Below are positions 11,430-36,791 of a DNA stretch of 45,764 nt, piece after piece (position 1 is the first letter of the stretch; each line of letters opens with the position of its first letter). The DNA comes from Brevibacterium sp. (lineage in GTDB: Bacteria; Actinomycetota; Actinomycetes; Actinomycetales; Brevibacteriaceae), in assembly GCF_022712115.1 (NCBI RefSeq), contig NZ_JALAHB010000197.1, positions 1 to 45,764 of the forward strand, in the 5' to 3' direction. Made by a program: the position numbers and the translations under genes. The notes beneath the pieces are model-generated. The model did no database searches and was not told where the DNA came from. It saw only the letters and a program-made list of their open reading frames with translations.

Positions 11430-11453
11430 CGCGATCCCCGCAGCTGTGAGGCG

Positions 11454-11465
11454 TCATCGTCTCAT
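11454..11465 (-). other. In-frame stop codon inside the apparent signal peptide of the TAXI binding protein
   Basis: On the minus strand the codons ATG AGA CGA TGA CGC CTC lead in frame into the binding protein. The TGA at 11456-11454 breaks an otherwise ideal positively charged n-region; a single C-to-T change from CGA would create it. A GGGAG lies 12 nt before the ATG. Confidence 0.6.
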
Positions 11466-11536
11466 TTTCACTGTCTGCTCCCGATAGTCGGCTGGTAGAT
11501 GCATGTGAGATCACACAGACACTACTGTAACCGCAC

Positions 11537-12166
11537 TCATCGAAATTCGCCTCCTCGGGGAGACAGAAGCCCCTGCCGTATTCCCACCCGAGCCGCAGCG
11601 CCGACGGCATCCAACCGGCCTGCCTCCACCTGCACCACCGGCGGGACCGAGGCGGCGTCCGTGAGCTCGGCGGCGGCGAGGCAGCCCGCTGCGATGATCG
11701 CGTCCGGCTCCGCGAGGACGAAGGCGGCCGGAGCGCGGCCGGTCACGATGAGCTCGGCCAGCACGCTGGAGCCGGAGGACGAACCCTTGGACGCCTCGAG
11801 CACCAGGATCCGCCCCGTCACGAGCGTGCCGTGGTGCGGGTGGTGGACGTCAGCGATCCGCCCAGTGGCGTCCACCCCGCCCCAGAACGACACCGGCGCG
11901 ATCCGCAGAGGTCGCCCCTCCACGGTCGCCGGGCCGTCCGGATCGGTCACCCGCCCGTCCGAATCGGTCACCGGGCCGACCGGATGGGTCGCCCATGCTG
12001 GACCGCTCATACCGCCCGGGACGAGCACACGCGCCTCCATGCGGACCTCGTCCCCTGCGGCTCCCACCGCCGTGACGAGGCATCGCCCTGCCGCGGGCTC
12101 TCCGTGCGCACACCGCTCTCCGCCGCCTGTGCCGGCCACCGCCTGCGATTCCGCCGCGCCGCTCAC
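11537..12166 (-). CDS. Aconitase X small (swivel, DUF126) subunit
   Basis: The swivelling domain of two-subunit aconitase X, a member of the aconitase superfamily that dehydrates hydroxy acids or hydroxyproline. The 209 residues include the DUF126 hallmarks VSFWGGVDATGRIADVHHP, TGRILVLE, a GSSSGSSVLAELI phosphate/substrate loop, and GRAPAAFVLAEPD. The start is GTG at 12166, overlapping the stop of the large subunit as GTGA, the expected coupling; the frame stays open further upstream but only as a shadow of the large subunit. Between the N-terminal part and the SFWGG core is an unusual insertion made from three in-frame 21-bp repeats (GPVTDSD, GRVTDPD, GPATVEG). Residues 1-30 are poorly conserved. 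Confidence 0.85.
   Translation of the reverse strand: MSGAAESQAVAGTGGGERCAHGEPAAGRCLVTAVGAAGDEVRMEARVLVPGGMSGPAWATHPVGPVTDSDGRVTDPDGPATVEGRPLRIAPVSFWGGVDATGRIADVHHPHHGTLVTGRILVLEASKGSSSGSSVLAELIVTGRAPAAFVLAEPDAIIAAGCLAAAELTDAASVPPVVQVEAGRLDAVGAAARVGIRQGLLSPRGGEFR
11933..11995. repeat. Three 21-bp tandem repeats within the aconitase X small-subunit gene
   Basis: Units 11933-11953, 11954-11974 and 11975-11995 share the pattern gccgtccggatcggtcaccc with a few changes. Because 21 is a multiple of three, the frame is kept and the protein gains a seven-residue repeat. Confidence 0.7.
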
Positions 12167-13401
12167 GGCACACACCCCGTCCGGGCCGCCCGCACACACT
12201 CCGCGAGCGAACCGAAGGCCACTGCGACGCCGATGTTCCCGGGCGCGTAGTGGGCCCATTTCGCGGAGTTGGTCATCACCGCACGCACGGTCTCGTCCTC
12301 CAGCGGGTGCAGATAGGTGCACGTGTCGGTGACGATCCGGACGCCGGCCGCGTCCAGGACGGCGGCGTCCTCTGCGCTCTGCTCCTGCAGATGCGCGAGC
12401 GTGACCCTGCCGGTGCTCACCCACACCGGCACCCGCAGCCGGGCGTCCTGCGGCCTCCTCAGTTCGCTCGCCAGTGCGCGCAGCTCGGCCAGAGAGGCAT
12501 GCGGGGTGCCGAGGCTCACCGCGTCGATGCGCTGGCCGGGCGGCAGACCGCTCAGCTCACTCCGGGCCCGGGCGAGGTCCTCGTCGGTGAGCGCCGCGGC
12601 CGGGAGCCCGGCCTCGGCGACAGCGCGCTCCGCACGAGCGGCCTCCGGCGTCACGCCCTCCACGTGGAAGAGCGCGACCCCGCCTGCCGAGGCCGCCGCC
12701 GCACCCAGAGCCTTGAGCCCCTCCTCGCCCGGCACCTCCGCGAGCCCGCTGATGAACGGCACTCCCGTCCCGGCCCGCGTGCCCGCAAGGTAGCCCAGCA
12801 ATGGGAGCACATGCTCACCGCGCTCGGTGATCCGACTGCAGTCCAGGTGCAGTGTCGGCCGGCGGTTCTCCTCGAGGTGCAGTCCGGCGAGAGGGGCGAA
12901 TCCGGTGATCGCGGCGCAGATGTCGAGGAAGTCGCCGTAGCGGTCGGTGCGCGCACCCAGCACGGAGTTGGCGAAGACGATGGCGTTCGACTCCGCCCAG
13001 GCGATGTGCTCGCCCTCCTCCGGTCTGCTCGGCAGGTGGTAGGGCGCGCAGGTCCACGTCTGCTGCACCCCCAGCTGCGCGTAGAGCTCCATGAGGCGCG
13101 CACCCTGCCGGGTGGTGAGCTCGCCGCGCGGCCGGAACTCGCGGTGCAGGAGGTCGACGGAACCCACGTTGGCGGTGGTGGGAACGGCGCAGGCGGCCCC
13201 CAGGTCGGCGAGCCTCCGGGCATAGGCGAGGCCGGAGTCCCCGTGGTACAGGCAGGAGTCGATGTGCGCGCGAGTGATTCCGACGAGCCGTTCCGCACCC
13301 TTCACCCGGGCGATCCCCGCGACCATCCGCATCGCCATCGCGACCGCGGGACCGCGAGCGCCGTCGAGCATCCCCTGCTGGGCCGGGGTGAGAGTGAGCA
13401 T
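12163..13401 (-). CDS. Aconitase X large (catalytic, DUF521) subunit
   Basis: Catalytic subunit of aconitase X, an iron-sulfur dehydratase family; characterised members act on cis-3-hydroxy-L-proline (bacteria) or mevalonate 5-phosphate (archaea). The 412 residues contain the family pattern HIDSCLYHGDSG, VPTTANVGSVDL, TCAPYHLPSRPEEGEHIAWAES, FANSVLGARTDRYG, the segment VTDTCTYLHP, and a C-terminal MTNSAKWAHYAPG with two further Cys. The ATG follows TAGCCT by 7 nt, so the mRNA is probably leaderless. It is first of five co-directed genes: aconitase X large and small subunits, TAXI binding protein, DUF1850, TRAP permease. A dehydratase with its own uptake system suggests catabolism of an imported hydroxylated acid; the exact substrate is not decidable here. 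Confidence 0.9.
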   Translation of the reverse strand: MLTLTPAQQGMLDGARGPAVAMAMRMVAGIARVKGAERLVGITRAHIDSCLYHGDSGLAYARRLADLGAACAVPTTANVGSVDLLHREFRPRGELTTRQGARLMELYAQLGVQQTWTCAPYHLPSRPEEGEHIAWAESNAIVFANSVLGARTDRYGDFLDICAAITGFAPLAGLHLEENRRPTLHLDCSRITERGEHVLPLLGYLAGTRAGTGVPFISGLAEVPGEEGLKALGAAAASAGGVALFHVEGVTPEAARAERAVAEAGLPAAALTDEDLARARSELSGLPPGQRIDAVSLGTPHASLAELRALASELRRPQDARLRVPVWVSTGRVTLAHLQEQSAEDAAVLDAAGVRIVTDTCTYLHPLEDETVRAVMTNSAKWAHYAPGNIGVAVAFGSLAECVRAARTGCVP

Positions 13402-13408
13402 ACGCCCG

Positions 13409-13414
13409 AGGCTA
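13409..13414 (-). promoter_or_regulatory. -10 box of the aconitase X-TRAP operon (leaderless)
   Basis: TAGCCT on the minus strand, 7 nt before the ATG at 13401. No good -35 is present, consistent with an activator. Confidence 0.5.
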
Positions 13415-13473
13415 CCGGGCCTCGGCGGCGAAGGCTCCCCTGCAGGTCCCCCGCAGGACCCCCGACAGTTGTC

Positions 13474-13534
13474 TGATCACTTCACCCAGCCGTCTGCACA
13501 GCAATGGCCGGGTGAAATGATCGATTGATAATCG
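13474..13534. promoter_or_regulatory. Inverted repeats upstream of the aconitase X operon (candidate regulator sites)
   Basis: Arm 13474-13487 (TGATCACTTCACCC) pairs with 13510-13523 (GGGTGAAATGATCG), 12 of 14 positions. Partly overlapping the right arm is a second perfect dyad, CGATT-GAT-AATCG, at 13522-13534. The area is AT-richer than its surroundings and lies about 75-135 bp upstream of the predicted transcription start, a plausible activator region. The rest of the gap to acpS (13535-13637) shows nothing recognisable. Confidence 0.4.
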
Positions 13535-13637
13535 TATGAGGTGGGGTGGACCTCCAGGGCGCGGGAGCAGCGCCGCTGCCCCAGCTTGCGGGCTGCGCGC
13601 GCCATGCAGCCCTCCGCGTTCCGCGCACCGCGCAGCC

Positions 13638-14171
13638 TCAGCTCTGCGTGCGCCGGGCCTCCTCGCGCTCTGCACGTCTGGCCTCACGGGAGGCCCGTGC
13701 TCGCTCGCGGAACGCCGCCAGCTCCGCCAGCGCCTCGGGCGAGCCCGGCAGCAGCGGGGCGGGCTGATCCACCGAGGGCACCGCCTGAGCTGCCTGCTCC
13801 GGGCCCTCCACCACCACGAACGTCACCGTCCGGTCACCGTCGTGGGTGATGGACAGATGCACCCGCTCGGCGCCCTTCTGCCGGAAGTGCTCGCGCACCC
13901 AGCCCGTGAGCCGGAAGCTGGGCGCGCCGGAGAAGGCGGAGACCACCTCGGCCTCGTGCCAGGGGATGATCTGCGGCAGCTGGAGTGCCTTGACCAGCGC
14001 CTCCTTGGCGGAGAAGCGTGCGGCGAGGGACTCCGCAGACCGCCGCCGCCCGTTCTTCCGCAGCTGCTCCGCCGGTGTGAGCAGCCGGTCCAGCAGCTCC
14101 GGGACGCGCTCGATGTGTTCGGCGAAGCGCGGGACGTCCGCGATGTCCACGCCCACCCCGATGATGGCCAC
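13638..14171 (-). CDS. acpS: Holo-[acyl-carrier-protein] synthase
   Basis: Transfers 4'-phosphopantetheine from CoA to a serine of acyl carrier protein in the cytoplasm. The fold begins MAIIGVGVDIADVPRF, with the Mg-binding Asp in GVDI, and continues with LAARFSAKEALVKAL carrying the second metal-binding Glu. Typical AcpS proteins have about 120-130 residues; this one has 177, the excess being a C-terminal Pro/Ala linker and an Arg/Glu-rich helix (FRERARASREARRAEREEAR). It lies 11 bp behind glmS in the same direction. In related genomes nnr follows directly; here the accessory block begins downstream. Confidence 0.92.
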   Translation of the reverse strand: MAIIGVGVDIADVPRFAEHIERVPELLDRLLTPAEQLRKNGRRRSAESLAARFSAKEALVKALQLPQIIPWHEAEVVSAFSGAPSFRLTGWVREHFRQKGAERVHLSITHDGDRTVTFVVVEGPEQAAQAVPSVDQPAPLLPGSPEALAELAAFRERARASREARRAEREEARRTQS

Positions 14172-23192: not shown

Positions 23193-23636
23193 TTACTGCG
23201 CGACCTGGGTCAGCTCGTAGGGCTGCGGGTTCTGGGCGCTGTGCGGGTGCTCCGGACCTGTGTAGATCTTGAGCTTGTGCATCTGCGCCCGACCGAGGCG
23301 ATTCTTGGGGATCATGCCCGCGATGGCCTTCTCCACCGCGCGCTCGGGGCGCGTGGCGAGGAGCTCGGCGTAGTTCACGCTCTTGAGGCCGCCGGGGTAG
23401 TTCGAGTGACGGTAGGCGCGCTTCTGCTCCAGCTTGGCACCGGTCAGGGCGACCTTGTCCGCGTTCACGATGATGACGAAGTCACCGGAGTCCACGTGCG
23501 GTGCGAAGGTGGGCTTGTGCTTGCCGCGGAGCAGACGAGCCGCCTGCGAGGCAAGGCGGCCGAGGACCACATCAGTGGCGTCGATGACGTGCCACTGGCG
23601 CTGGATGTCACCGGGCTTGGGGGTGTACGTACGCAA
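23193..23636 (-). CDS. rplM: 50S ribosomal protein L13 (TTG start)
   Basis: Early-assembling large-subunit protein. From the TTG at 23636 the protein is 147 residues, the standard length, beginning [10 protein letters not shown] and containing [42 protein letters not shown] and [12 protein letters not shown]. The TTG has AGAAGG 5 nt upstream; no ATG or GTG exists at that place. The frame is open for another 2.7 kb upstream but that is an antisense shadow of the membrane-protein gene. It is followed by rpsI in the usual two-gene operon. Confidence 0.96.
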
Positions 23637-23897: not shown

Positions 23898-26633
23898 GTG
23901 TTCGTCCGACTGCTCACCGCCCTCGCCTGCACCCTGGGCCTCGTCCTGCCCGCCCATGCGTGGCCGGGAACGGCCCACGCCGCACCCGTGCCCGCCCCGG
24001 CGGAGCAGACCGCACCGCTCGCCGCACCCGCGCAGGACGCGACATCGGCGCAGGTCACCGGTGCCGCACCCGTGTCCCTGACCGCGCAGCCCGCGCCCGA
24101 GGCCGGGCCGGCGGACGCATCCGGCCCGGCCTCGGGCGCGGTGGTGATCGGCTCCTCCGGCCTCAGCCTCGAGGACCTCTCTCCGGAGACCACCCCGCAC
24201 CTCTGGCGGATGGCCGAGGAGGGCGCGGCGGGCAACCTGGCCGTGCGCACTCTCACACCGGCGACCTGCGCGGCCTCCGGCTGGCTGTCCCTGGGGGCGG
24301 GGGCGCGCATGCGGGGTGCGGACCTCACCCCGGCCTGGCAGCACCCCCTCTTCCTCGACCGCGCGTGCCCGCGGATGCTCGAGCCCACCTCGGAGGCGGC
24401 GGACGCGCCGGAGAGCACGGGACCCCAGCCCACGGGCCTCGCCCCCGCGGCGTTCTCCGAGTTCCACCGGGTGGACGATCTCAATGCGACCGGGGGCTAC
24501 GGCGCTTTGCCGGGCGCCTTCACCCATGCCGCGGACTCCGCCCTGGCGAGGGAGGGAGCGCCGGACGCGGATGCGACGCCGCCCGCTGCCGAGGGTGCGC
24601 AGGCGGACCGCAGCGCGGAACCGTCGTGGTGCACGGCCGCCGTGGGCACCGGCGCCGGCTACGCGGCCGCGGACCCGGAGGGCCAGGTGGGGCTCTGGTC
24701 CCCGCTGTCCACGCTGCTCGACGAGCCGGAGGACGCGGACGAGCGCACCCGTGAGAAGCGGGCGGCCGAACGCACCGCCCTGCTCTCCGCCTGCTCCCTC
24801 ACGCTCGTGGACGCCGGCACCGCCGCCGATCCTCTGTGGGACCCGGCAGCCTCCGCCCTCTGGTCCGAGGCCACGCTGGGCACGCTGCGCTCCGCGCAGA
24901 TCCAGGAGCTCGACGACCGCGTGGGCCTCATCCTCGAGTCCGTCCCGGACGACTACGACGTGGTCGTCGCGGGCCTCGGCGACTCCGCCTACCCCTCCCG
25001 GCTGCGCGCCCTGCTCGCCACCGGCCCCTCCTACCCCGAGGGGACGCTCACCGCCTCGTCCACGCGGCAGGCCGGCCTCACACAGCTCACGGACGTGCTG
25101 CCCGCCGTGCTGAGGAACACCGGGATGGAGGCCGCGGGCTCCTCCCCCGCCGCCTTCACCGTCGACACCGGCACCGCCGGGAAGTCCGCGCAGGAACGCC
25201 TCGACAGCCTCACGGCCGATGCGCGCAAGGCCGCGACGGTCCACACCCACGCACAGACCTTCGGGATCGTGCTCGACGTCCTCTTCTACGCGCTCTTCCT
25301 CTTCACGATGATCGGCTTCACGGTGCCGGTGGTCCGGTTCATGCGCCGGCGCAGCCTCGCGGCGCGGCGGCGCGCGGACTCCCTGCGCCCGGCTGCGGCC
25401 GTCGCCGCGGACGCCCCCGCCGTCCCGCTGAGCGGCTGGCGCACCGGCGTCTCCTGGGCCTGCTTCGCCCTCGGCCTCCTCCCGGCGGCCAGCTTCTTCG
25501 CCGGTTTCCTCCCCTGGGGCCGTGCGCCGGATCCCGCCCTCGCGCTCGCACTGTCGATCGCCGCGGCCGTCCTGGTGCTGCTGCTGGCGGCCGTCGCCGG
25601 CCCCTGGCGGCGGACCTGGGCCGGACGCATCGCGGCCGTGAGCCTGCTGAGTGCCCTCGTGCTCCTGGCGGACGTGGCCCTGGGCTCCCGCCTGCAGTTC
25701 AACTCCCTCATGGGCTACAACCCCATCGTCGCCGGGCGCTTCTACGGCCTGGGCAACCAGGGCGCCGCGCTGTTCCTCGTCGCCTCCCTGCTGGGCCTGG
25801 GCATCGTGGCCGCGCGGCTGGGCGCCCACGGCCGCGCCGGCTGGGCACGTGCGCTCACCGCCGTCTACGCCCTCGTGAGCGTGTGCGTGCTGGGCAACCC
25901 GGCGTGGGGCGCCAAGTTCGGCGGCACCGTGGCCGCGCTGGTGGGCTTCACCGTCCTCCTCCTCGCGCTGTTCCGCATCCGCGTGAACCTGCTCAAGCTC
26001 GCGGGGATCGGAGCAGGGGCCCTCGTCGTCATCATGGGCGTGGCCTGGCTGGACTACCTCCGTCCGCCGGCGGAGCGCTCGCACTTCGGCAGCTTCTTCG
26101 CCCAGGCTCTCGACGGTGAGCTGCTGGACGTCATCGGCCGCAAGCTGGGCGCCAACCTCCGCATCGCCGTCATCAACCCCGGCCTGGCGATCGTCGTGCC
26201 CCTGGCCGTCCTCATCGTCCTGTTCGCGCTGGCCTACCTGCGCCGGAGCAGGCGGACCGCCGTGCTCGCCCGGCCCTGGGACGGGTACCTCCCGGAGGCG
26301 CTCACGGACCCCCACGTGCACGCCGGCTTCCTGTCCGCCGTCCTCGCACTGGCCGTGGGCCTCGTCATCACGGACTCCGGGATCGCGGTGCCCGCGACGG
26401 GCGCCATGATGTTCGTCCCCTTCCTCGTGGTCCTCAGCCTCGACGCCGCACAGCGGGCGGAGGGCGAGGACGCTTCCAGCACGGCGGACGGCACGGTCCG
26501 GTCTGCACCTGCGTACGCGCCCGTCACGCCCGCCGCCGCAGAGACCGGCGAGGCCGGTGCGACCAGTGCGGCCAGCGCGAGCGGGAGCACGGAAACCGAC
26601 AGGAATGCACCCGGGCCCGAGGCCACCGCATGA
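23898..26633 (+). CDS. Membrane protein with alkaline-phosphatase-like ectodomain, paralogue 1
   Basis: Function unknown. The 911 residues begin with a signal sequence (cleavage likely after AHA, residue 28), then a secreted domain to about residue 454, then about 11 helices and a 60-residue Ala/Glu tail. The ectodomain recalls the alkaline phosphatase superfamily: [20 protein letters not shown] at its start and [17 protein letters not shown] at its end, the latter like the DLAPTLLDLLG element of sulfatases and phosphodiesterases. The metal-binding Asp expected in the first strand and the Thr/Ser nucleophile are not recognisable. The membrane half has [48 protein letters not shown] and ITDSG. 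The GTG start is 6 nt after a -10 box. The next gene is a paralogue overlapping by 4 bp. Confidence 0.85.
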
Positions 26634-28741
26634 TCCGCCGCCTGCTCACCACCCTCCTCGCACTGCTCCTGGCCGTGGGCGGGTTCGCCGCTCCGGCCTC
26701 GGGCACCGACCGCACGCCTGCCCGGACCGGCGAGGGACCCGTCATCCTCCTGGGCTTCGCCGGACTCACCTTCGAGGACGTCCACCCGGACCGCACGCCC
26801 CATCTCTGGCGCCTGGTCTCCGAGGGCGCGGTGGGCACCATGACCCCTCGCTCTGTGCGGGACACCAGCTGCGCCGCGGACGGCTGGCTGGGCGTGGCCT
26901 CCGGCAGGAGAGCGGCCGACGAGCCCCGCCCCACCTGCCGCGTCCTCGCCGACCCCATCGGAGGGTGGGTGCCCGACTGGGATGTGTACCTGGCCCAGGC
27001 CGCCGAGGACAACTACACACCCGGCGTGGGCGCACTCACCCAGACCGCGGAGGACGCGGGCGTGGCGGTGCGCGGCATCGGCCCCGGTGCGGCCGTGGGC
27101 ACGGCCGCCCCGGACGGCAGGGCCGCGGACTGTGAGCCGCGGGCCCCCGCCGGCGAGCGCGGCGCGCAGGTGGTCGACGCCGCCGAGGACGCCGGAATCG
27201 TGCTCGTGGACCTCGGCAGCGTCTACGCCCCCGGCAACTCGGTCACGGACCTCGACGCCGCGGTGGGAGAGGTGCTCACGGCGGTGGACGCCGCCGGGGC
27301 CGAGGGGCGGCACACCTCCCTCGTCGCCGCCTCCCTGGCCGACGGCCGCACGGACGAGTCCCGCATGCAGTTCTCCGCGGTCTACGGCGGGCGCGACGCC
27401 TCCGGCGCGTCCGCCGGCGAACCGGGAGCGGAACTGCTCACCTCGCCGTCCACCCGGCAGCCCGGCCTCGTCCAGGTCTCCGACCTCACCCCCACCCTCC
27501 TCTCGCTGGCGGGGGTGCAGGGCGGCTCCAACTTCGCGGGAGCGCCCATGCAGTTCCAGGACGGACCGGACGGGGCGGGCGGCAAGCACCAGCTCATGCT
27601 CGACCGGCAGACGGCCGTCCTCACCCAGCAGAGCATCTCCGCGTGGATGTACGCCGCGTGGGGAGGCCTGCTGCTGGTGGGCCTGGTCCTGTGCACCGTC
27701 ATGGCGCGCCGCTCGGGCACCGCGCGGGTCGCGACGCTGCTCGCCGGAGGCGGCATGCTCATGGCCTCGCTGCCCGTCTCGACCTACCTGGTGAACCTGC
27801 TCCCCTGGGAGCGCTCCACCTCGCCGGACGTGGCGATGCTGGGCGGGGTGATCGGCTGGGCCATCGTGCTCACCGCGCTCGCCGTCGCAGGGCCGTGGCG
27901 CAGGCTGCGGGGCGGCAGCCTCGCCTTCGTCTCCGCAGTGACGGTCGCGGTGCTCGCCGCCGATGTGCTCACGGGCTCGCGGCTGCAGATGTCGACGATG
28001 CTGGGCGAACCGCTGCTCATCGCCTCCCGCTTCTACGGGATCGGCAATTCCGCGCTCGCCCTCTACTGCACCGCGCTGCTCGTGGGGCTGGGGCTGGCCT
28101 GCTCATGGCTGCGCAGCTCCACGTGGAGGCACCGCAGATGGGTGACGACGACGGTGGTCATCGCGGCGGTCCTGGCCTCGTGCGGGCTGCTCGCGGCTCC
28201 GGGGCTGGGCACCAAGTTCGGCTCCGTGCCCACGCTGGTGCTGGGCAGCGCCGTGTTCGCCCTCGCCGCCGCCGGCATCCGGCTCTCGTGGAAGCGTCTG
28301 CTGGTCTTCGGCGGAGGTGCCGCAGCACTCATGCTCGCCGTGCTCTTCCTCGACTGGCTGCGGCCGGCGGAGGCGCGCACGCACTTCGGCAGATTCTTCG
28401 ACTCGATCCTCACCGGCGAGGCCGGTGCCGTGCTCATGCGCAAGATCGGCATGAACGTCGACATCCTCACCCAGAGCTGGATGACGCTGCTGCTGCCCCT
28501 GCTCATCGCCGTGGTGCTGTGGGCGGCGATCTCGCCGGCGCGCTTCCGCATCCCCGGCCTGGCGGAACAGTACCGGAGGCTCCCCCTTCTGCGTCCGGCC
28601 GTCATCTCGCTCGCCGTGCTGCTCGCGGTGGGGACCTTCATCAACGACTCCGGCGTGGTGGTGCCGGCCGTGGGGATGCTGTTCCTCGTGCCCGCGCTCG
28701 CCTCCTGTGCGGGCAGTTCCGAGGAGATGCGCCGGGGCTGA
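26630..28741 (+). CDS. Membrane protein with alkaline-phosphatase-like ectodomain, paralogue 2
   Basis: Function unknown. At 703 residues it is a shorter paralogue of the preceding gene, starting with ATGA overlap. A signal peptide ([20 protein letters not shown]) leads to an ectodomain to about residue 335 with [32 protein letters not shown], a [13 protein letters not shown] segment matching [14 protein letters not shown] in paralogue 1, and [16 protein letters not shown], then about 11 helices. Shared membrane motifs are [34 protein letters not shown] and NDSG. Conserved Arg, Asp, His and Asn within or next to helices suggest a transport or membrane-enzyme role rather than a scaffold. The two proteins probably form a heteromer. 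A degenerate repeat starts 27 bp after the stop. Confidence 0.85.
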
Positions 28742-29168: not shown

Positions 29169-29229
29169 CCCCAAGTTACGTCTGCGTACCGGCCGTGTAG
29201 GACGGCCGGTACGCAGACGTAACTTGGGG
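29169..29229. repeat. Long palindrome, copy 1 (downstream of the nucleotidase gene)
   Basis: A perfect 28-bp inverted repeat (29169-29196 with 29202-29229) with a 5-nt loop. The arm core AGTTACGTCTGCGTA is repeated in copy 2 near guaA. It probably acts as terminator for the nucleotidase gene, 119 bp upstream; the remaining 29230-29347 shows only GC-rich sequence. Confidence 0.85.
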
Positions 29230-29347: not shown

Positions 29348-31846
29348 TCAGACGGTGCTCTTGCGGCGACGGGACGCCGCCAGAGCGGTGCCGCCCGCAG
29401 CGACGAGCACGGCGGCCAGACCCAGCGCACCGGCGAACTCCGCACCGGTGCGAGGCAGCCTGCCGTCGTCCTTCCGGTCATCGCCGGAGCCGCTGCCGTC
29501 ACCGGAGCCGCTGCCGTCGTCCTGACCGTCACCGCTGCCGGAGCCGTCCCCGTTGCCGTCCTCGTCCCCGCTGCCGGAACCGTCGTCGTTGCCCGAACCG
29601 TCGTCGTCTCCACCTTCACCGGCGGCCACGACCTGGACCTCGAACTCCACGGAGGAGGGCAGAGGCTTGGGGTTGTCGTCCCACCAGGCGTGCTCCGGAT
29701 CCGCGACGAGGTTCGCCTGCACCGTGTAGGTGCCGGGAGCCACGTCGTCACCCGCCGTCACCGTGAGATCCGAACTGGTCGTTCCCTCTGCGATGGACGG
29801 CAGCACGGTCGACTCCGCAGTCTCCGCAGCGGCCGTGGAGACGGTGTCCACCGCGGTGAGGTCCGCGGAGAAGCCCGCGGGCAGCTCCAGAGAGAGGAGG
29901 AACGGCCCCTCGATCTCACGGGTGGCCTCGGTGTCGAAGGTGAGCGGCAGCTCTGCGCCCTGCTCCACCTGCGCCCGCTCCGGCGAACCCAGGCTCGCAG
30001 TGAGCTCCCCCGTGTTCATCACGTCCAGGGCGTAGTCCGCCTGGCGCTCCTGGTGGTCTGGGGAGACGGGCGTGTTCTCCTCGAAGTACTTCTCCCACAC
30101 GTCGAAGTCCGTGAGACCGGACTGTTCGAAGGTGCCATTGGCGAAGCCCGCGTAGTTGTCCCCGCCGGAGGCGAGGAAGCTCAGCGTCGCCACACGATAC
30201 GTGGCCTCGGGGTCGATCTCCTCACCGTCCACAGTCACGGAGAGGACCCGTTCGCCCTTCGGAGCGGTCGAGTCGTAGACCACACCCACCTCCTCGGAGA
30301 CGCCCAGATGGAGCATCGGCCGCGAGGCGCCCTCCGGCTGCCACTGCTCCTCGAACACCTGCAGCACATCCGCACCCGTGAGCGTCACGACGCCGTGGTC
30401 GTTGGCGAAGGGCAGCACCGCGTTGAGCTCGGCCACCGTCACCTCGCCCGGCTTCTCGCCGTTGTAGATGTCATCCACGAGGAGGTCCGTGCGGAGTCCG
30501 CCGGAGTTGGTGAGGCCGAAGTCCGCCTCCTCCAGCTGCGAGTACTCGACGCCCTCCTTGAGCGCGTCCGCCACGAGGTTGCCCAGCGTGGACTCCTTGC
30601 CGCGGTCCTCGCTGCCGTCCGCCGTGGCCCGGGTGATGTCCTCGGTGATGGTGCCCACCACGGTGGAGCCGATCTCCTTGGCCTGCGCCTCCGCATCCGC
30701 CACGATGTCGCGGACCTCGTCCACCACGGGCGAGGTGACCTCGACGCCCTTGGTCTCCAGCAGCGAGGCGTCATCCGTCGTCCACTCACCACTGCCGTCC
30801 GCGGTGAGCGTGAGGCTGCCCACGGCCTCGCCGTACTTCTGCGACTGCAGGATGGGACGCTCGCGGTCCGTGCCGGGAACGGGCGCGGAGAAGTTGGCGG
30901 GCAGGTGCGAGTGGCCCATGAACATCGCGTCGATCGACGGGTCGGACTGCTCCACGATCGCCTTGAACTCCGCGTTGGAGGCCAGAGCGGAGTCCAAGTC
31001 CGAGGTCACGGCGGGCCCCGCATGCGCGTTGAGGACCGTGACGTCCGGCCGCTGCTCCTCGGGCAGTCCCTCCAGCTCGGCCGCCGCCCGGTTGATCGCC
31101 TCGACGGAGTCGCCGAACTCGATGTCCGCGATGCCGTCCGGGCTCACGAGCGTGGCGGTGTCCTGGGTGACCACACCGATCACGCCGACCTTGAGGTCAC
31201 CGGCCTCGATGATCTCCCAGGGCTTCAGGCCCGCGGCGACGTCCTTGGTGCCCTTGGCGTAGACATTGGCACCCAGGTGCGCGAAGTCCGATTCCGCACC
31301 CACCCTGTCCCGGAGGTCCGCGTAGCCGCGGTCGAACTCGTGGTTGCCGGCAGCGGACACGTCCAGACCGATCGCGTTCAGGACATCCAGCGTGGGGGTG
31401 TCCTGCTGCGAGGAGGAGACGTAGGTGGAGGCTCCGATGTTGTCGCCGGAGGAGATGAAGGCGGTCTCCGCACCGGCCTCGGCCGCCGCGGCGCGCTCGC
31501 GCTCCACGACGCTCGCCACATTCACCCCCGCCTCGCTGATGCGGCCGTGGAAGTCCGTGATGTTGAGGAGCTGCAGCTCGGTGCCGGCGGCCGGGGCCGC
31601 GGCGGTCGCGAGTCCGTCGGTCTCCTCCGCAGCGGCCTCGCCGAGGCGGTCCCCGCCGTCCTGCTCCTGCTCGCCGAGGCCCTGGTCCTCCGAGGCGGAG
31701 GGGGCCTGTTCCGGGGCGGCCGGGGCGGAGTCGCGCTCAGCGCCGCCCAGCCCCGGTGCCGCCACGGCCGGCAGGGCTCCCAGCGGCACCAGCAGGCCCA
31801 CTGCCGCGGCGCCGGCGACGGCCCCGCGGATGAGATTCTTCTTCAT
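29348..31846 (-). CDS. Cell-wall-anchored bifunctional metallophosphatase / 5'-nucleotidase
   Basis: A secreted nucleotidase/UDP-sugar hydrolase-type enzyme that would release phosphate and nucleosides outside the cell. The 832 residues have a signal peptide (to about 29), an acidic Gln/Glu/Ala linker (to about 88), a calcineurin-like metallophosphoesterase domain with NITDFHGRI, SSGDNIGAS, AAGNHEFDRG, NAHAGP and a GHSHL metal motif, then the 5'-nucleotidase C-terminal domain (SPVVDEVRDIV to YAGFANGTF). A low-complexity Asp/Gly/Ser stalk follows, and then LPRTG at 797-801, a hydrophobic helix and an RRRK tail: a sortase anchor. No sortase gene is in the window. AAGGA lies 5 nt before the ATG. 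Possible PhoP control is discussed at 31931. Confidence 0.92.
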   Translation of the reverse strand: MKKNLIRGAVAGAAAVGLLVPLGALPAVAAPGLGGAERDSAPAAPEQAPSASEDQGLGEQEQDGGDRLGEAAAEETDGLATAAAPAAGTELQLLNITDFHGRISEAGVNVASVVERERAAAAEAGAETAFISSGDNIGASTYVSSSQQDTPTLDVLNAIGLDVSAAGNHEFDRGYADLRDRVGAESDFAHLGANVYAKGTKDVAAGLKPWEIIEAGDLKVGVIGVVTQDTATLVSPDGIADIEFGDSVEAINRAAAELEGLPEEQRPDVTVLNAHAGPAVTSDLDSALASNAEFKAIVEQSDPSIDAMFMGHSHLPANFSAPVPGTDRERPILQSQKYGEAVGSLTLTADGSGEWTTDDASLLETKGVEVTSPVVDEVRDIVADAEAQAKEIGSTVVGTITEDITRATADGSEDRGKESTLGNLVADALKEGVEYSQLEEADFGLTNSGGLRTDLLVDDIYNGEKPGEVTVAELNAVLPFANDHGVVTLTGADVLQVFEEQWQPEGASRPMLHLGVSEEVGVVYDSTAPKGERVLSVTVDGEEIDPEATYRVATLSFLASGGDNYAGFANGTFEQSGLTDFDVWEKYFEENTPVSPDHQERQADYALDVMNTGELTASLGSPERAQVEQGAELPLTFDTEATREIEGPFLLSLELPAGFSADLTAVDTVSTAAAETAESTVLPSIAEGTTSSDLTVTAGDDVAPGTYTVQANLVADPEHAWWDDNPKPLPSSVEFEVQVVAAGEGGDDDGSGNDDGSGSGDEDGNGDGSGSGDGQDDGSGSGDGSGSGDDRKDDGRLPRTGAEFAGALGLAAVLVAAGGTALAASRRRKSTV

Positions 31847-32004: not shown

Positions 32005-33135
32005 TCAGCCCTGCAGCTCCTCCGCGCTCCGCCTGTTGCGAGCCGTCTCCGCCTGCTCCGCCCATCCCGCGGGGCCCTCCGGATAGCCCACCTCCTCGAG
32101 CACGAGACCGTGCGCGGGCATGAGGTGCATGGGGGCGAGCGCCGTCTTCGCCGCACCGGCCTCCGCGCGGGCCAGCTGCTCCGCGGGTGCCGTGACGTCC
32201 CAGGAGCCATGCCCCACCTTCACGAGAGCGCCCACCAGCGCACGGACCATGTGATGGCAGAAGGCATCGGCCTGCAGTCCCAGCGTGATCGCACCGTCGC
32301 CCGCGCCGCGCGTGACCGTGAGCGCCTGCAGCGTGCGGATGGTGGTGGACTCCGGACGCGGCTTGCAGAAGGGCAGGAAGTCGTGGAGGCCCAGCAGTTC
32401 CGCGGCGGCAGCGGCCATGCGCTCGACGTCGAGCTCGCCCCGCAGCTGCACCGTGTGGCCGACGGCCAGCGGGTCAAGGAACGCGGCGGCATCCGCGATC
32501 CGGTAGGAGTAGCGGCGCCAGACCGCGGAGAAGCGCGCGTCGAACTCCGCGGGCACCTCCTGCGCCGCATGCACCACGACATCCGGGGCCTCCAGGTGCG
32601 CGAGCACTCCTCGCAGACGGCTCGTCAGCCCTTCCGCGGGCGTGCGCCGCCGCTTCCCCTGTGTGCCGCCCAGCCTGGCCGCAGTGGTCTCCGGCAGGTC
32701 CAGGTGCACCACCTGCCTGCGCGCATGCACCCCCGCGTCCGTGCGGCCGGCGACGACGGTCCGCACGGGCACGCCGCAGATCTTCGCGAGCGCGGCCTCG
32801 AGAGTTCCCTGCACCGTGCGCAGACCCGGCTGGGTCGCCCAGCCGTGGAACCCTCCCCCCGCATAGCCGAGGTCGAGACGGAACCGCACCGCGGCCTCGG
32901 CGACCGAGGCCGCGGCAGCAGGCACGCGCGCGTCTTGCCGGGATCCCAGCAGCCCGGGGGCCGTCGCCGACCGCTCGCGAACGGACTCGGCTGGCCCGCC
33001 CACGGATCCCGCCTCTGGGAGTGCCACCCCGGCCTCCTCGCCCGCAGGCCCCGAGTCCGCGTTCCCCGAGTTCGCAGGCCCCGAGTCCGCAGCCCCCGGC
33101 CTCGCAGGCCCCGATGCCACAGACTCCGGCTTCAC
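32005..33135 (-). CDS. truA: tRNA pseudouridine(38-40) synthase
   Basis: Converts uridines 38-40 of the tRNA anticodon arm to pseudouridine. The conserved part starts about residue 83 with VRFRLDLGYAGGGFHGWA, then VAGRTDAGVHARRQVVHLDL with the catalytic Asp, DARFSAVWRRYSYRI, HDFLPFCK and FCHHMVRALVGAL. From the GTG at 33135, which overlaps the preceding stop as GTGA, the protein has 376 residues, some 80 more at the N-terminus than usual. That extension is Ala/Gly/Ser/Pro-rich and its first part is coded by 15-bp tandem repeats. A later in-frame GTG at 32889, directly before RFRLDLGY, would remove it and cannot be excluded. It probably belongs to one operon with the LemA-like gene. Confidence 0.9.
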   Translation of the reverse strand: MKPESVASGPARPGAADSGPANSGNADSGPAGEEAGVALPEAGSVGGPAESVRERSATAPGLLGSRQDARVPAAAASVAEAAVRFRLDLGYAGGGFHGWATQPGLRTVQGTLEAALAKICGVPVRTVVAGRTDAGVHARRQVVHLDLPETTAARLGGTQGKRRRTPAEGLTSRLRGVLAHLEAPDVVVHAAQEVPAEFDARFSAVWRRYSYRIADAAAFLDPLAVGHTVQLRGELDVERMAAAAAELLGLHDFLPFCKPRPESTTIRTLQALTVTRGAGDGAITLGLQADAFCHHMVRALVGALVKVGHGSWDVTAPAEQLARAEAGAAKTALAPMHLMPAHGLVLEEVGYPEGPAGWAEQAETARNRRSAEELQG

Positions 33136-33137
33136 AG
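33048..33137. repeat. Six 15-bp tandem repeats spanning the lemA-like stop and truA start
   Basis: Units of the form gccccgagtccgcag start at 33048, 33063, 33078, 33093, 33108 and 33123. They keep the truA frame and give five-residue repeats (roughly GPAxS/ADSGP). The lemA-like stop and truA GTG lie in the last unit. Confidence 0.75.
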
Positions 33138-33767
33138 GTCCTCGCTCAGCCGGCCGGGGCGGTAGTCCTCGCCGCCGTCCGGGGAGACGAGGTCCGCGGA
33201 CGGGCCCGCCGCATCGTCGTCCCCCGCGTCCGCGAGGGAATAGCCGATCTCCGCAACGGGCCGGAACGCCCACCGCCAGGGCAGCGAGCCGAGCAGTCTG
33301 CGCCGGTCCTCGTAGGCACGGACGCTGCTGTTGTGATGCCGCGCCGCCGCGCCGATGTGCGTCTCCTGCGTGCGCAGCTGCTGGAACAGCTCCCGGGCCA
33401 GCGCCCGCGAGGCCGTGGGCCGCTCGCCCTCGCCGGAGGCCACGGAGCGCACCCGGGCGTGCACGGCGGCGACGCAGAGAGTGAGGCGGAACTCGGCGGG
33501 ACCCGTGGCGCGGCTCTCCTCGGACTGCCCGGCGGCCCGCACCGCGCTCTCGAGCCGATGGGTCTCCACGGAGTCGCCCACGACCTCGCGCGCGGCGATG
33601 AGATAGGTGGGCACCAGTCCGTGCCGCGCACGGCGGGCCTCCGTGTACTGGCGCAGCGCCTCCGCCGTGAGCGAGCGGTTCATCGAGAGCTGGTTGAACC
33701 GGATGACCAGGAAGGTCACCAGCGCGGCGAGCACCACGAGGAGGACTGCGAGCAGCACCCACTTCAT
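33132..33767 (-). CDS. LemA-like membrane protein
   Basis: A 211-residue protein with one N-terminal helix (MKWVLLAVLLVVLAALVTFLVI) and a mostly helical exposed domain. RRARHGLVPTYLIAAREVV resembles the LemA RRxDLIPNLV motif, and HIGAAARHHNSSVRAYEDRR resembles the LemA A-RRYYNxAV-x-YN segment, in the expected order and spacing. The cellular role of LemA proteins is unclear. The stop overlaps the truA GTG. Sequence similarity is moderate, so the family call is less secure than its neighbours. The promoter is TATCCT at 33806. Confidence 0.7.
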   Translation of the reverse strand: MKWVLLAVLLVVLAALVTFLVIRFNQLSMNRSLTAEALRQYTEARRARHGLVPTYLIAAREVVGDSVETHRLESAVRAAGQSEESRATGPAEFRLTLCVAAVHARVRSVASGEGERPTASRALARELFQQLRTQETHIGAAARHHNSSVRAYEDRRRLLGSLPWRWAFRPVAEIGYSLADAGDDDAAGPSADLVSPDGGEDYRPGRLSEDL

Positions 33768-33805
33768 CCTTGTGTTCCACCTCTGTTCAGCTGATGAGCA
33801 CTCGC

Positions 33806-33899: not shown

Positions 33900-35078
33900 G
33901 TGAGAGTCGCAGTCATCGCAGAGTCCTTCCTGCCCCAGATGAATGGTGTCACGCACAGCCTCCTCCGCGTTCTCGACCACCTGGCCGAGCGCGGCGACGA
34001 CGCGGTGGTGATCGCGCCCGGCACCCGCCGCAGCGGGCCCCACGAGGTCGCCGGGTTCCCGATCCTCCGCGTCCCCGGGTTCGCCATGCCCTCCTACCGC
34101 TCCGTGCGGGTGGCGCCCGGCGGTGTGCCGCGCATCCGCCGGATGCTCGCGGCCTTCGCACCGGACGTCGTCCACCTCGCCTCGCCGTTCGTGCTGGGCT
34201 GGCGCGGGGCGCTCGCGGCGCAGGACCTGGGTCTGCCCAGCGTGGCCGTCTACCAGACCGAGGTGCCGGCCTACGCCGCCCGCTACGGCATGCCCGGGGT
34301 CGAGACCGCCCTGTGGAACCACGTGCGCGCCCTCCACCAGCGCTCGTCCCTCACCCTCGCGCCGTCCTCGTACGCCCTGGCCCAGCTCGAGGGGCTCGGC
34401 GTGGACGATGTGCGCCTGTGGGCCCGGGGCGTGGACGCCTCCCGCTTCGACCCCGGTCACCGCTCCGCCGCCTTCCGCGCTCGGGTGGGCGTCTCACAGG
34501 ACGGCTCCGGGCCCGAGGTGGTGGTGGGCTACGTGGGCCGCCTCGCCGCGGAGAAGCAGCTCGAGGACCTGCGGGTGCTGGACGCGCTGCCCCACGTCCG
34601 CCTCGTGATCGTGGGCGAGGGGCCGCGCAGGGCAAAGCTGGAGCGCCTGCTGCCGCATGCGCACTTCACCGGGTTCCTGGGCGGCGCTGCGCTGGCGCAG
34701 GCCGTGGCGAGCTTCGACCTCATGGTCTCCCCCGGTGAGTTCGAGACGTTCTGCCAGACCATCCAGGAGGCGATGGCCTCGGGCGTGCCGGTCATCGCCC
34801 CCGCGCGCGGCGGACCCCTGGACCTCGTGGACTCCTCCCGCACCGGCTGGCTCTACGCACCCGGGGACCTCGCGGGGCTGCGCGCGCACGTCCGGGACCT
34901 GGCCGGCGACGCGGCCAAGCGACGCGCCTTCGGCATCGCCGCACGGAAGGCCGTGCAGGGGCGGTCGTGGAAGAGCGTGTGCTCGCAGCTGCGGGGCCAC
35001 TACGCCACGGCGATCGAGCGGCCGGAGGCGCAGGTCACCGGCCGCTGGTCACTCGCCGAGGTCGCAGGGGCTCGGTGA
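33900..35078 (+). CDS. mgtA: GDP-mannose-dependent alpha-mannosyltransferase, MgtA-like (GT4)
   Basis: A GT-B fold retaining glycosyltransferase of family 4. MRVAVIAESFLPQMNGVTHS at the start, VVHLASPFVLGWRG, VGYVGRLAAEKQLEDL and the donor-binding EFETFCQTIQEAMASGVPVIAP are very close to what I know of MgtA of mycobacteria and corynebacteria, which mannosylates a glucuronosyl-diacylglycerol anchor in lipomannan synthesis; action at the inner face of the membrane is expected. The start is the GTG at 33900 with GGAG 9 nt upstream; GTG 33891 would add three residues. It stands alone, divergent from the lemA-like gene. Its last codons run into a tandem repeat. Confidence 0.85.
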   Translation: MRVAVIAESFLPQMNGVTHSLLRVLDHLAERGDDAVVIAPGTRRSGPHEVAGFPILRVPGFAMPSYRSVRVAPGGVPRIRRMLAAFAPDVVHLASPFVLGWRGALAAQDLGLPSVAVYQTEVPAYAARYGMPGVETALWNHVRALHQRSSLTLAPSSYALAQLEGLGVDDVRLWARGVDASRFDPGHRSAAFRARVGVSQDGSGPEVVVGYVGRLAAEKQLEDLRVLDALPHVRLVIVGEGPRRAKLERLLPHAHFTGFLGGAALAQAVASFDLMVSPGEFETFCQTIQEAMASGVPVIAPARGGPLDLVDSSRTGWLYAPGDLAGLRAHVRDLAGDAAKRRAFGIAARKAVQGRSWKSVCSQLRGHYATAIERPEAQVTGRWSLAEVAGAR

Positions 35079-35191
35079 GACGCAAGGGGCTCGGCGCAGT
35101 CACGAGGCCCGGAGACGTCACGGAGTCCTGGTACGGACGTGGAGACCTGGTCAGGACGCGGAGGTCCGGTGGGGTCCCGGAGTCCCGCTGA
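35061..35191. repeat. Seven degenerate 18-20 bp tandem repeats at the 3' end of mgtA
   Basis: Units begin at 35061, 35079, 35099, 35117, 35135, 35154 and 35173, with the last three exactly 19 bp apart (pattern GGACGTGGAGACCTGGTCA). The mgtA stop is in the first unit. The array fills most of the gap to the convergent bioN; no terminator hairpin is evident there. Confidence 0.6.
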
Positions 35192-35241
35192 GAACACGGG
35201 TGCCCGGATGCGCGCGCGGCGCAGGCACCGGCCGCACACGC

Positions 35242-35853
35242 TCAGCCCAGGCCTCGGGCCTCCAGCGCCCGGCCGGTGTCCTGCGCGTACTTCACCGTCC
35301 CCAGCACGAGCGGCACGGTCCGGGCACGCAGGTTCCGTTCGAGGCCTCGGGCGCGGGCGGAGTCCCCGGACACCCGCGCCAGATCGGCGAGCACGGGCAG
35401 GCTGCGGACCATGAGCGCGGCGGCGAGGCTCACCTTGTCCGGGTCCGCGCCCACGTACCGCAGCGGTGCGGCCAGCACGCCGAACGCGGAGAGCAGGGCC
35501 GCCACGGAGGTCGTGAGCATGAGCAGGGATGCCGCCGTGAGGCAGACCGCGATGGTCGAGACAACGCGCAGGCCGTTCGTCCAGTCCGTGAGCAGGGCGT
35601 GGATGACCACCACGCCGGCCACGATCGGCCAGATCCTCAGCAACGGTGCGAGCGTGCTGCGCAGCGGCACGCGAGCGGTGAGCGCGACCACGAGGAGCAC
35701 GCCCAGAAGCACGGCGTTGACACGCGCGTCGCGGAACAGGAGGACGACGACGCTCACCGCCGCCACCGCGCCCAGCTTCCACCCCGGCCCCAGCCGGTGC
35801 AGCCAGCCGTCCCCGGGGATGCGCCGGCCCAGGAACTGCTGCCGCTCCCTCAT
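35242..35853 (-). CDS. bioN: Biotin ECF transporter transmembrane (T) subunit
   Basis: The scaffold subunit that couples the ATPase to the substrate-binding BioY protein. It has 203 residues with about four or five helices and the two T-subunit coupling motifs ARARGLERN and ALEARGLG near the C-terminus, whose Ala-Arg-Gly cores grip the ATPases. The ATG overlaps the bioM stop by 4 bp. The bioY-bioM-bioN order identifies it as the biotin transporter rather than a shared ECF module. Confidence 0.92.
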   Translation of the reverse strand: MRERQQFLGRRIPGDGWLHRLGPGWKLGAVAAVSVVVLLFRDARVNAVLLGVLLVVALTARVPLRSTLAPLLRIWPIVAGVVVIHALLTDWTNGLRVVSTIAVCLTAASLLMLTTSVAALLSAFGVLAAPLRYVGADPDKVSLAAALMVRSLPVLADLARVSGDSARARGLERNLRARTVPLVLGTVKYAQDTGRALEARGLG

Positions 35854-36791
35854 CGCGGGGGCCTGACGGTGTGCCGGGCCTCCGCAGTGCCTCGAGCTCC
35901 GGACTCCCTCTCTCCCAAGACCAGGGCACGGTAGGCGGCGATGGTCCCGGCAGGAGCGCCGTCGGCGGCAAGACGACCGTCGGCGATGCAGAGGGTGCGC
36001 TGCGCATCCGCGGCGAACTCGAGATCGTGGGTGGAGACGAGGATCCGCACCCCGCGCCGCTGTGCCAGATCCGCCAGCACGCCTCGCAGCAGCTCCCGGT
36101 TGGCGAGGTCCAGCAGGGTGGTGGGCTCGTCGAGCACGAGCACGGCGGGGTCCACCGCGAGCACGGCCGCCAGCGCCACCAGCTGCCGCTGCCCCCCGGA
36201 GAGCTCGTAGACGCTGCGGTGGGCCAGGTCCGCCACCCCCAGCTCGTCCAGCACCGCGAACGCCCGCTGGGTGCGCTCCTTCCGGTTCCGCACGCCGCGT
36301 CGCAGCGAGAGCTCCACGTCCTCCAGCGGAGTGGGCATCACCAGCTGCGCCGCGGGATCCGTGAAGACGAAGCCCACGCGCCGACGCACGGCAGCGCCCT
36401 TCGCCGCGACGTCCAGACCGTCGACCGTCACGGTGCCCGCATCTGCCGTCACGAGCCCGTTGACGAGCTGCAGGAGCGTGGACTTCCCGGACCCGTTCGC
36501 CCCCACGACGCTCACGGTCTGCTCCGTGAGGGCGCAGCTGATGTCCGCGAGCACCGGCCGCAGGCGCGTCTCACCGGGCCGCCCGCCGGGCACCGGTTCC
36601 GGAACGCCCACCGTGACGGAGTCGAACACCACGCCCGAGGCCTCGGCGGCTGTGCGCTGCCCGGCCGGCTCCGGCACTTCAGCGAGCACGAGGGCCTCCG
36701 GCGGTGCTGCACACGCGGCTTTCGCGGCGGTCTTCCCGGCGGCCGCCGCGGAGGCCGGGAGTGAGGTCGTCAGCGGGCGAGGCGGGGTCAT
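35850..36791 (-). CDS. bioM: Biotin ECF transporter ATP-binding subunit
   Basis: ATPase of the biotin ECF importer, on the cytoplasmic face. The 313 residues have a 45-residue Ala/Pro-rich N-terminal extension, then Walker A VGANGSGKSTLL (about 97-105 for the loop), the signature YELSGGQRQLVALA, Walker B VLVLDEPTTLLD, and a STHDLEF switch His. The C-terminus is a variable Arg/Thr tail. It overlaps bioY upstream and bioN downstream by 4 bp each, so the three subunits are made in a coupled ratio. Confidence 0.93.
   Translation of the reverse strand: MTPPRPLTTSLPASAAAAGKTAAKAACAAPPEALVLAEVPEPAGQRTAAEASGVVFDSVTVGVPEPVPGGRPGETRLRPVLADISCALTEQTVSVVGANGSGKSTLLQLVNGLVTADAGTVTVDGLDVAAKGAAVRRRVGFVFTDPAAQLVMPTPLEDVELSLRRGVRNRKERTQRAFAVLDELGVADLAHRSVYELSGGQRQLVALAAVLAVDPAVLVLDEPTTLLDLANRELLRGVLADLAQRRGVRILVSTHDLEFAADAQRTLCIADGRLAADGAPAGTIAAYRALVLGERESGARGTAEARHTVRPPR

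Follow-up and report, generated by a model that had tools for sequence, protein, structure and literature searches.

A Brevibacterium gene pair for membrane proteins with degenerate alkaline-phosphatase-like heads, and its probable place in a lipid-linked glycan pathway

We analyzed a stretch of 45,764 nucleotides from Brevibacterium sp. (contig NZ_JALAHB010000197.1, positions 1 to 45,764, forward strand; the window below), which carries two overlapping genes for proteins of 911 and 703 residues. The label FAM is used for the whole protein family, FAM1 for the 911-residue protein and FAM2 for the 703-residue protein. Both combine a putatively secreted head, which resembles alkaline phosphatases with their active site degenerated, and a polytopic membrane domain. 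Among the sampled genomes, FAM co-occurs with a divergent MraY/WecA-like gene, which in the order sample travels with a second MurJ; this co-occurrence is new here. That FAM belongs to a lipid-linked glycan pathway is highly probable in our view. Its more specific role as the extracytoplasmic transferase or polymerase step of such a pathway, hitherto undescribed, has about even chances judging from sequence and gene context. The main features are as follows.

23898..26633 (+): FAM1 gene, the 'brev1' paralogue, GTG start, 911 residues; pseudo-alkaline-phosphatase head, predicted to be secreted, and polytopic membrane domain (open reading frame, paralogy, alignment A2, tree clade)
24141..25217 (+): putative degenerate alkaline-phosphatase-like ectodomain of FAM1, about residues 82-440 (alignment of strand-1 and C-terminal motifs; limits approximate)
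25260..26450 (+): predicted membrane domain of FAM1, about residues 455-851, with D592, R614, N620, D719, R722, H729, R748, K749 and T825-D826-S827 (limits approximate, aligned to the FAM2 topology)
26630..26633 (+): ATGA stop/start overlap of FAM1 and FAM2 (sequence)
26630..28741 (+): FAM2 gene, of the 'brev2' clade that groups with single-copy relatives, ATG start, 703 residues (open reading frame, alignment A1, tree)
26735..27619 (+): putative degenerate alkaline-phosphatase-like ectodomain of FAM2, about residues 36-330 (alignment, PDB profile search)
27650..28705 (+): predicted 11-helix membrane domain of FAM2, residues 341-692 (topology from hydropathy and charge)

Glycan-gene partners of the family

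Co-occurrence was scored in 59 genomes of the order and 149 of the phylum. Among the order genomes, FAM and the MraY/WecA-like gene were both present in 33, FAM alone in 3, the partner alone in 1 and neither in 22 (Fisher p = 5e-12); the corresponding phylum counts were 61, 4, 5 and 79 (p = 1e-30). The two genes lie within 300 bp of each other in 20 of the 61 phylum genomes that have both. Of 47 genomes from two phyla that carry FAM, 46 also have the partner, including all 21 with Bacillota-type loci; these 47 were taken from the 80 loci compared, out of 325. A MurJ paralogue, separated from the ordinary MurJ by a wide score gap, has exactly the distribution of the MraY/WecA-like gene in the order sample, both being present in 34 genomes. 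For glycosyltransferase family 2 (GT2), the order sample gave 35 genomes with both, 1 with FAM only, 6 with GT2 only and 17 with neither (p = 6e-9). SteB, which served as a control and occurs in 43 of the 59, was linked more weakly (34/2/9/14 in the same order of classes, p = 5e-6). SteB is retained in one Brevibacterium genome (G058) in which FAM, the MraY/WecA-like gene, the MurJ paralogue and GT2 all went unmatched at the cut-offs used, an apparent co-loss of FAM and its partners. SteAB was rejected as a constant component of the module, as SteB occurs without FAM in 9 of the 59 order genomes and FAM without SteB in 2.

The whole proposed module stands in one locus of a Mycobacteriales metagenome-assembled genome (MAG; locus L093), in the order recN, steA (PF12555), steB (PF11382), the MraY/WecA-like gene, murJ (PF03023), a gene of glycosyltransferase family 4 (GT4; PF00534), two FAM genes and the CTP synthase gene pyrG. 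The MraY/WecA-like product of this locus is 41% identical (E 2e-47) to that of the genome from which the window derives and has no Pfam match. Comparable arrangements occur in further Actinomycetota MAGs, of which several belong to Acidimicrobiales. Contig C217 (L127) of the genome that contains the window carries recN, steA, steB, the MraY/WecA-like gene, the MurJ paralogue, GT4, a doubtful GT4-like gene and pyrG, with no FAM gene, and contig C68 holds the end of a GT2 gene. The four C217 genes from the MraY/WecA-like gene to the doubtful GT4-like gene occupy positions 9031-14063, flanked by steB and pyrG. In L093 and other actinobacteria FAM is located in this interval, and in Brevibacterium it may have been relocated to the rplM locus.

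Glycosyltransferases (GTs) are often fused or adjacent to FAM. Relatives were taken from the best 120 of 448 and the best 120 of 355 matches, and of the 119 proteins that the second set added, 105 have a GT2 domain fused N-terminally to FAM (PF00535 was checked for two, P0175 and P0193); those with a named source come mostly from Acidimicrobiales. The same GT2 is often encoded by a neighboring gene on the opposite strand in Streptosporangiales and Micrococcales. GT2 or GT4 is fused to FAM or lies within 5 kb of it in 62 of the 80 loci, some of the remaining 18 being short contigs. Bacillota have GT4 within 5 kb in 17 of 20 loci, usually directly before FAM, and a separate steA-steB-(GT2)-MraY/WecA-like cluster in 8 of 8 regions (L143-L150), with GT2 recognized in six and recN visible in three. 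Locus L076, labeled as an Actinobacteria MAG, has a FAM sequence and synteny of Bacillota type (GT4 and a prenyl-synthase-like neighbor), and its label is probably wrong; it was grouped by label as actinobacterial in the GT-linkage count and as Bacillota-type in the partner check and the active-site counts. Two loci contain a polytopic gene between FAM and GT2: L055:9928-11304 (-), with no Pfam match, and L108:10133-11535 (-), which is GT87-like (PF09594, E 4e-6). This gene possibly encodes a polyprenyl-phosphate-sugar-using enzyme of the same pathway.

The MurJ partner matched PF03023 above its cut-off, which places it in the MurJ/MOP family. For the MraY/WecA-like gene, DD, NLxNLxD and GDxGAN are invariant in the three rows compared and may correspond to the DD, N..D and GD motifs of the MraY/WecA-like (PNPT) family.

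The head and the membrane half

The initial annotation had assigned the head to the alkaline phosphatase superfamily, and profile comparisons bear this out. Alignments A1 to A4 are chosen subsets of the family. The profile of A4 (11 relatives) found 26 chains up to E 10 among PDB sequences; one is named 'uncharacterized', and the other 25 carry names of enzymes that we take to be members of the superfamily. The N-terminus of the head matched the nucleotide pyrophosphatase 7mw8 (E 5.8e-4) and its C-terminal part the C-terminus of iPGM 2ify (E 0.0099); the two matches, on the strand-1 side and in the C-terminal DxxPT region, fall in the right order along the head. Furthermore, of the two copies joined in P0136, the second matched PF01663 (Phosphodiest) at E 2.3e-6, above the Pfam cut-off, and weak partial matches to SGSH_C were obtained with 5 of 11 members of one set and 6 of 10 Bacillota members. 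A PDB sequence search with FAM2 alone gave no result. At the level of sequence, membership of the head in the superfamily is thus upheld. It resembles the known members (NPP, iPGM, sulfatases) at both ends of the head but differs from them in its active site.

Active-site columns were scored in 375 aligned sequences, comprising 22 of Bacillota type and 353 others, which are actinobacterial where named, include many metagenome proteins and contain the 105 GT2-fused proteins. The metal-binding Asp of strand 1 is present in 24 of the 375, namely all 22 Bacillota-type sequences and 2 of the 353 others (6 of which are gapped there). Both window proteins lack it, FAM2 having A44 instead, and the GT2-fused proteins have Pro, rarely other residues, in its place. 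At the column of the putative nucleophile, 81 of the 375 have Ser or Thr: 64 of the 105 GT2-fused proteins, 13 of the 248 other non-Bacillota sequences and 4 of the 22 from Bacillota. Both window proteins have Ala in this column (A82 in FAM2, adjoining C81). Asp and a Ser/Thr nucleophile occur together in only 4 of the 375, all from Bacillota. A single ectodomain column exceeds 30% His, and judged by conservation there is no conserved His cluster. A complete, conserved phosphatase active site was not seen in this 375-sequence sample: Bacillota keep one active-site residue, the window proteins neither Asp nor nucleophile.

The absence of the metal-binding Asp, as first annotated, is therefore confirmed for both window proteins. 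Its loss throughout the family applies outside Bacillota and fails within them. Likewise, a missing Thr/Ser nucleophile describes the window proteins, not the family as a whole. An active phosphatase or phosphotransferase was considered for the window proteins and rejected in view of A44 and A82 and the lack of conservation of the site across the 375 sequences. The Ser/Thr at the nucleophile column of 64 of the 105 GT2-fused proteins (within P0157-P0275), found despite the loss of Asp, may reflect chance, a remnant or another use of the residue.

The claim of conserved polar residues in a polytopic domain also stood. Hydropathy averaged over 66 relatives predicts a signal peptide and 11 helices in FAM2, with the head outside and the C-terminus inside; the K+R content per residue is 0.194 in loops assigned to the inside versus 0.073 in those assigned to the outside. 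Eleven polar positions (FAM2 numbering: D445, R467, N473, D575, R578, H585, R604, K605, N672, D673 and S674) are invariant or nearly so in the 27 rows outside the doubled groups and Bacillota, and eight of them (D445, R467, N473, D575, H585, K605, N672 and D673) are identical in all 5 Bacillota rows as well. The whole set lies on the predicted outer side, adjoining the head. Exceptions occur in the doubled groups: N672 is replaced in 10 of 10 brev1 rows (9 Thr, 1 Ala), R578 is changed in 5 of 6 and R604 in 6 of 6 fusA rows, and S674 in 6 of 6 fusB rows. All the motifs listed at the outset, including (N/T)DSG, were found in the translations, and most of their positions are conserved across the family far above chance.

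Proposed step and its alternatives

A MraY/WecA-like starter, GT4/GT2 enzymes and a MOP flippase make up the inner half of a lipid-linked glycan pathway. The outer polar constellation and the tight gene company, in a module that lacks an outer transfer or polymerization step, make FAM the natural candidate for that step. We propose that the divergent MraY/WecA-like enzyme would start a polyprenyl-linked sugar on the inner side, GT4/GT2 enzymes would lengthen it, and a dedicated MurJ paralogue, as seen in actinobacteria, would flip the lipid-linked glycan. FAM, acting at the outer face of the cytoplasmic membrane, would then take over the flipped glycan, and its 11-helix domain, with the outward-facing D/R/N/D/H/K/N/D constellation, would carry out glycosyl transfer as a polymerase or ligase. 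The phosphatase-like head, its chemistry lost, could serve as an acceptor-binding scaffold or as a platform for a dimer or a partner subunit. FAM1 and FAM2 would operate together as a heterodimer in Brevibacterium, and the proteins of single-copy relatives as homodimers. We infer the order of the pathway, catalysis by the membrane half and dimerization; the outer-side placement of the conserved residues is predicted.

A lipid-linked glycan pathway of two phyla that lies beside the SteAB division genes, with an outer component outside the Pfam and NCBIfam families, appears to be undescribed. If the proposal is correct, several genes so far without a name (FAM, the second MurJ and the divergent MraY/WecA-like gene) would acquire a function, a reason why SteA would bind UDP or GDP would suggest itself, and a dead phosphatase fold would prove to have been co-opted as a permanent element of a glycan enzyme in the membrane.

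Several observations weigh against a transferase step in such a pathway. Genomic linkage alone cannot separate a transferase from an exporter or a regulator. FAM occurs without the MraY/WecA-like gene in order genomes G012 and G032 (fragmented assemblies) and G050, in phylum genomes G131, G229, G235 and G240, and in the genome of locus L060; G050 also lacks SteB, the MurJ paralogue and GT2. Conversely, the MraY/WecA-like gene occurs without FAM in G052 of the order and in G179, G197, G209, G213 and G230 of the phylum, and six of the 59 order genomes have GT2 without FAM. The cut-offs for the MurJ paralogue (best matches E ≤ 4e-32, next gene E 1.5e-15) and for GT2 presence (E ≤ 1e-30) were chosen after the score gaps had been seen. 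The Fisher tests treat genomes as independent and ignore shared ancestry; presence and absence also vary within some genera and families. The name of the MraY/WecA-like gene is weak: the gene of the window's genome has no Pfam match up to E 0.1, and its relatives in L032 (E 1.4e-4, 22.3 bits against a cut-off of 27) and L025 (E 0.003) match PF00953 below threshold. In the Bacillota loci that were fetched, the neighborhoods of FAM and SteAB gave no MurJ match; the search did not extend to the whole genomes. Finally, the membrane domain has no Pfam family match, and none of the profiles compared with it by hhalign (SEDS, GT87-like, MurJ and MraY/WecA-like) clearly beat its reversed control.

The initial annotation had left open whether the membrane half is a transporter or a transferase. 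The fused or adjacent GTs, the MraY/WecA-like gene and the second MurJ favor the transferase, and a transporter or a sensor fits these gene partners less well. An exporter or flippase partner, in which the helical domain would move the lipid-linked glycan alone or with the MurJ paralogue and the dead head would act as an outer cap, has the same genomic partners, and a polytopic domain with conserved charges suits it. FAM could moreover replace MurJ in the Bacillota loci where none was matched. We nevertheless consider an exporter unlikely, as the actinobacterial module already has a dedicated MOP flippase and the conserved charges gather on one predicted face, not along a pore. About as improbable is a regulatory pseudoenzyme complex with SteAB in cell separation, whose head would sense cell-wall status or glycan and signal via the membrane domain. 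In two phyla steA and steB share loci with FAM (Actinomycetota MAGs) or with FAM partners (Bacillota). SteAB regulates the RipA hydrolase, and CgSteA is stabilized by GDP or UDP (PMC12977500); this stabilization fits a sugar-nucleotide-linked process, without proving one. In Clostridia, SteAB has been placed downstream of Spo0A (PMC12977500). The word 'glycosyltransferase' is absent from the main texts of PMC12977500 and PMC6705760, and MurJ from that of the former. On the other hand, FAM follows the MraY/WecA-like gene more closely than it follows SteB, with its nine FAM-free genomes, and invariant polar residues in the membrane half would, in our judgement, be unusual for a pure sensor.

Two further alternatives concern the head and the pair itself. 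By architecture, the nearest known proteins are PIG-N, PIG-O and PIG-G. Eukaryotic PIG-N has an outer, active head of the phosphatase superfamily followed by a polytopic domain, and thus the broad head-then-membrane layout of FAM in a context of lipid-linked glycans. A bacterial counterpart of these GPI-ethanolamine-phosphate transferases, placing a phospho-substituent on a lipid-linked glycan, would agree with this order of domains, with a single weak PigN profile match (P0154, E 0.19) and with the four Bacillota sequences that have both Asp and a Ser at the nucleophile column. However, PIGN, PIGO and PIGG have been suggested to be zinc enzymes (PMC9168625), whereas a zinc-type site is not conserved in FAM, and P0154 was the only member among those searched to approach the PF04987 membrane domain, without significance; we regard such a counterpart as very improbable. 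The least probable alternative is that FAM1 and FAM2 are duplicates in decay, with no joint function. FAM1 has long stretches rich in Ala and Pro, noted by eye, and N672 is replaced in the brev1 rows, which could be read in this way, but both paralogues retain the other invariant polar residues of the membrane domain, synteny is kept in all four FAM-positive Brevibacterium genomes, and the pair is fused in P0136.

The transferase proposal can be carried further, to FAM as the polymerase of a second, 'shadow lipid II' pathway, in which a MraY-like starter, MurG-like GTs and the MurJ paralogue would feed a glycosyltransferase of SEDS-like topology, with the dead head as a regulatory partner in cis, beside SteAB at division sites in actinobacteria and Bacillota. 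We put this forward tentatively, as a possibility of rather low probability. By pathway logic, SEDS proteins (RodA/FtsW) with MurJ and MraY are the nearest known system, since a MurJ-type flippase and a MraY-like starter are FAM partners. In SEDS proteins the catalytic Asp is in the large outer loop that joins core helices 7 and 8. After helix 1, FAM has 10 predicted helices and a large fourth outer loop that opens with a conserved Asp, a predicted topology in line with that of RodA; if helix 1 is omitted, this 40-residue loop, which D575 opens, may correspond to the one between SEDS core helices 7 and 8. In contrast to the partner penicillin-binding protein of SEDS, the dead phosphatase head of FAM is covalently attached.

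Homology of the membrane half to SEDS was examined and dropped as evidence, although it is kept as a lead. By hhalign the membrane domain was compared with single proteins (E. coli RodA, FtsW, part of WaaL and LacY; the MurJ paralogue and MraY/WecA-like protein of the window's genome; three neighboring membrane proteins), among which RodA ranked first. Profiles of SEDS (11 rows), MurJ (9), MraY/WecA-like (11) and GT87-like proteins (4) were then each paired with reversed controls. The best SEDS alignment is in register over 158 columns, but its score of 20.2 (E 0.14) was equaled by reversed SEDS (20.1) and exceeded by the GT87-like profile (20.7) and its reverse (21.9); MurJ scored 16.5 versus 15.8 reversed, both far from significant. 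PF01098 is not among the matches listed for FAM, and tblastn with E. coli RodA and FtsW gave no match in loci L001-L150.

A bacterial family with the FAM architecture was not found in Pfam, NCBIfam or PDB sequences, nor did we find a publication title on the family in the open-licence literature. The broad layout itself is, however, shared with eukaryotic PIG-N.

Pairing and surroundings of the Brevibacterium genes

Both open reading frames and their ATGA overlap were found as annotated, and the shared architecture is that of paralogues: FAM1 and FAM2 are identical at 222 of 787 positions (28%; BLASTP E 6e-60). The overlap likely couples their translation, as suggested by its sequence. Third-position GC is 0.93-0.94 in both genes. 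Neither protein has a match up to E 10 in Pfam or NCBIfam, and no additional FAM copy was found in the rest of the assembly. FAM2 is 81% identical to a B. album protein, in keeping with a Brevibacterium genome.

Tandem pairing is local. The pair occurs in four of the five Brevibacterium genomes of the order sample, the fifth being G058. By match coordinates, the 36 FAM-positive order genomes comprise 4 with a pair, 3 with a fused double gene and 29 with a single copy, and the brev1-brev2 pair belongs to Brevibacterium and its close relatives. A quick tree with 66 rows (LG+G4, SH-aLRT support only) places brev1 and brev2 in two clades that are not sisters. P0136 joins one brev1 and one brev2 unit in a single chain of 1545 residues. 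In a second case of doubling, the two halves fall into one clade with strong support; these copies are fused in P0147, P0149 and P0157 and in all three genomes sampled from another family. L093 contains a third tandem pair. Such repeated doubling and fusion favor a dimeric protein. The heterodimer first envisaged is hence supported as a paired or dimeric unit, while an obligate heterodimer was rejected because most sampled members are single-copy. In two genomes (G205:C125:17589-22902 and G226:C83:15076-20371) the MraY/WecA-like gene lies exactly between two FAM genes, all on the same strand.

The pair lies between rplM and a 5'-nucleotidase gene in all four FAM-positive Brevibacterium genomes. 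By Pfam names, the left flank is rplM-rpsI, divergent from the pair. Neighboring features of the window are listed here; the region 34494-36007 has no Pfam match.

23193..23633 (-): rplM (L13), divergent left neighbor (PF00572; synteny)
29348..31846 (-): 5'-nucleotidase-like gene with secreted product, convergent right neighbor (PF02872; synteny)
32005..33780 (-): open reading frame containing tRNA pseudouridine synthase TruA (PF01416; synteny)

The 5'-nucleotidase-like protein ends in LPRTG, a hydrophobic tail and basic residues, presumably the mark of a sortase-anchored surface enzyme. A long inverted repeat, near-perfect by eye, is located at about 29170-29228, in the gap where FAM2 and the nucleotidase gene converge; it is possibly a two-way terminator or a repeat element.

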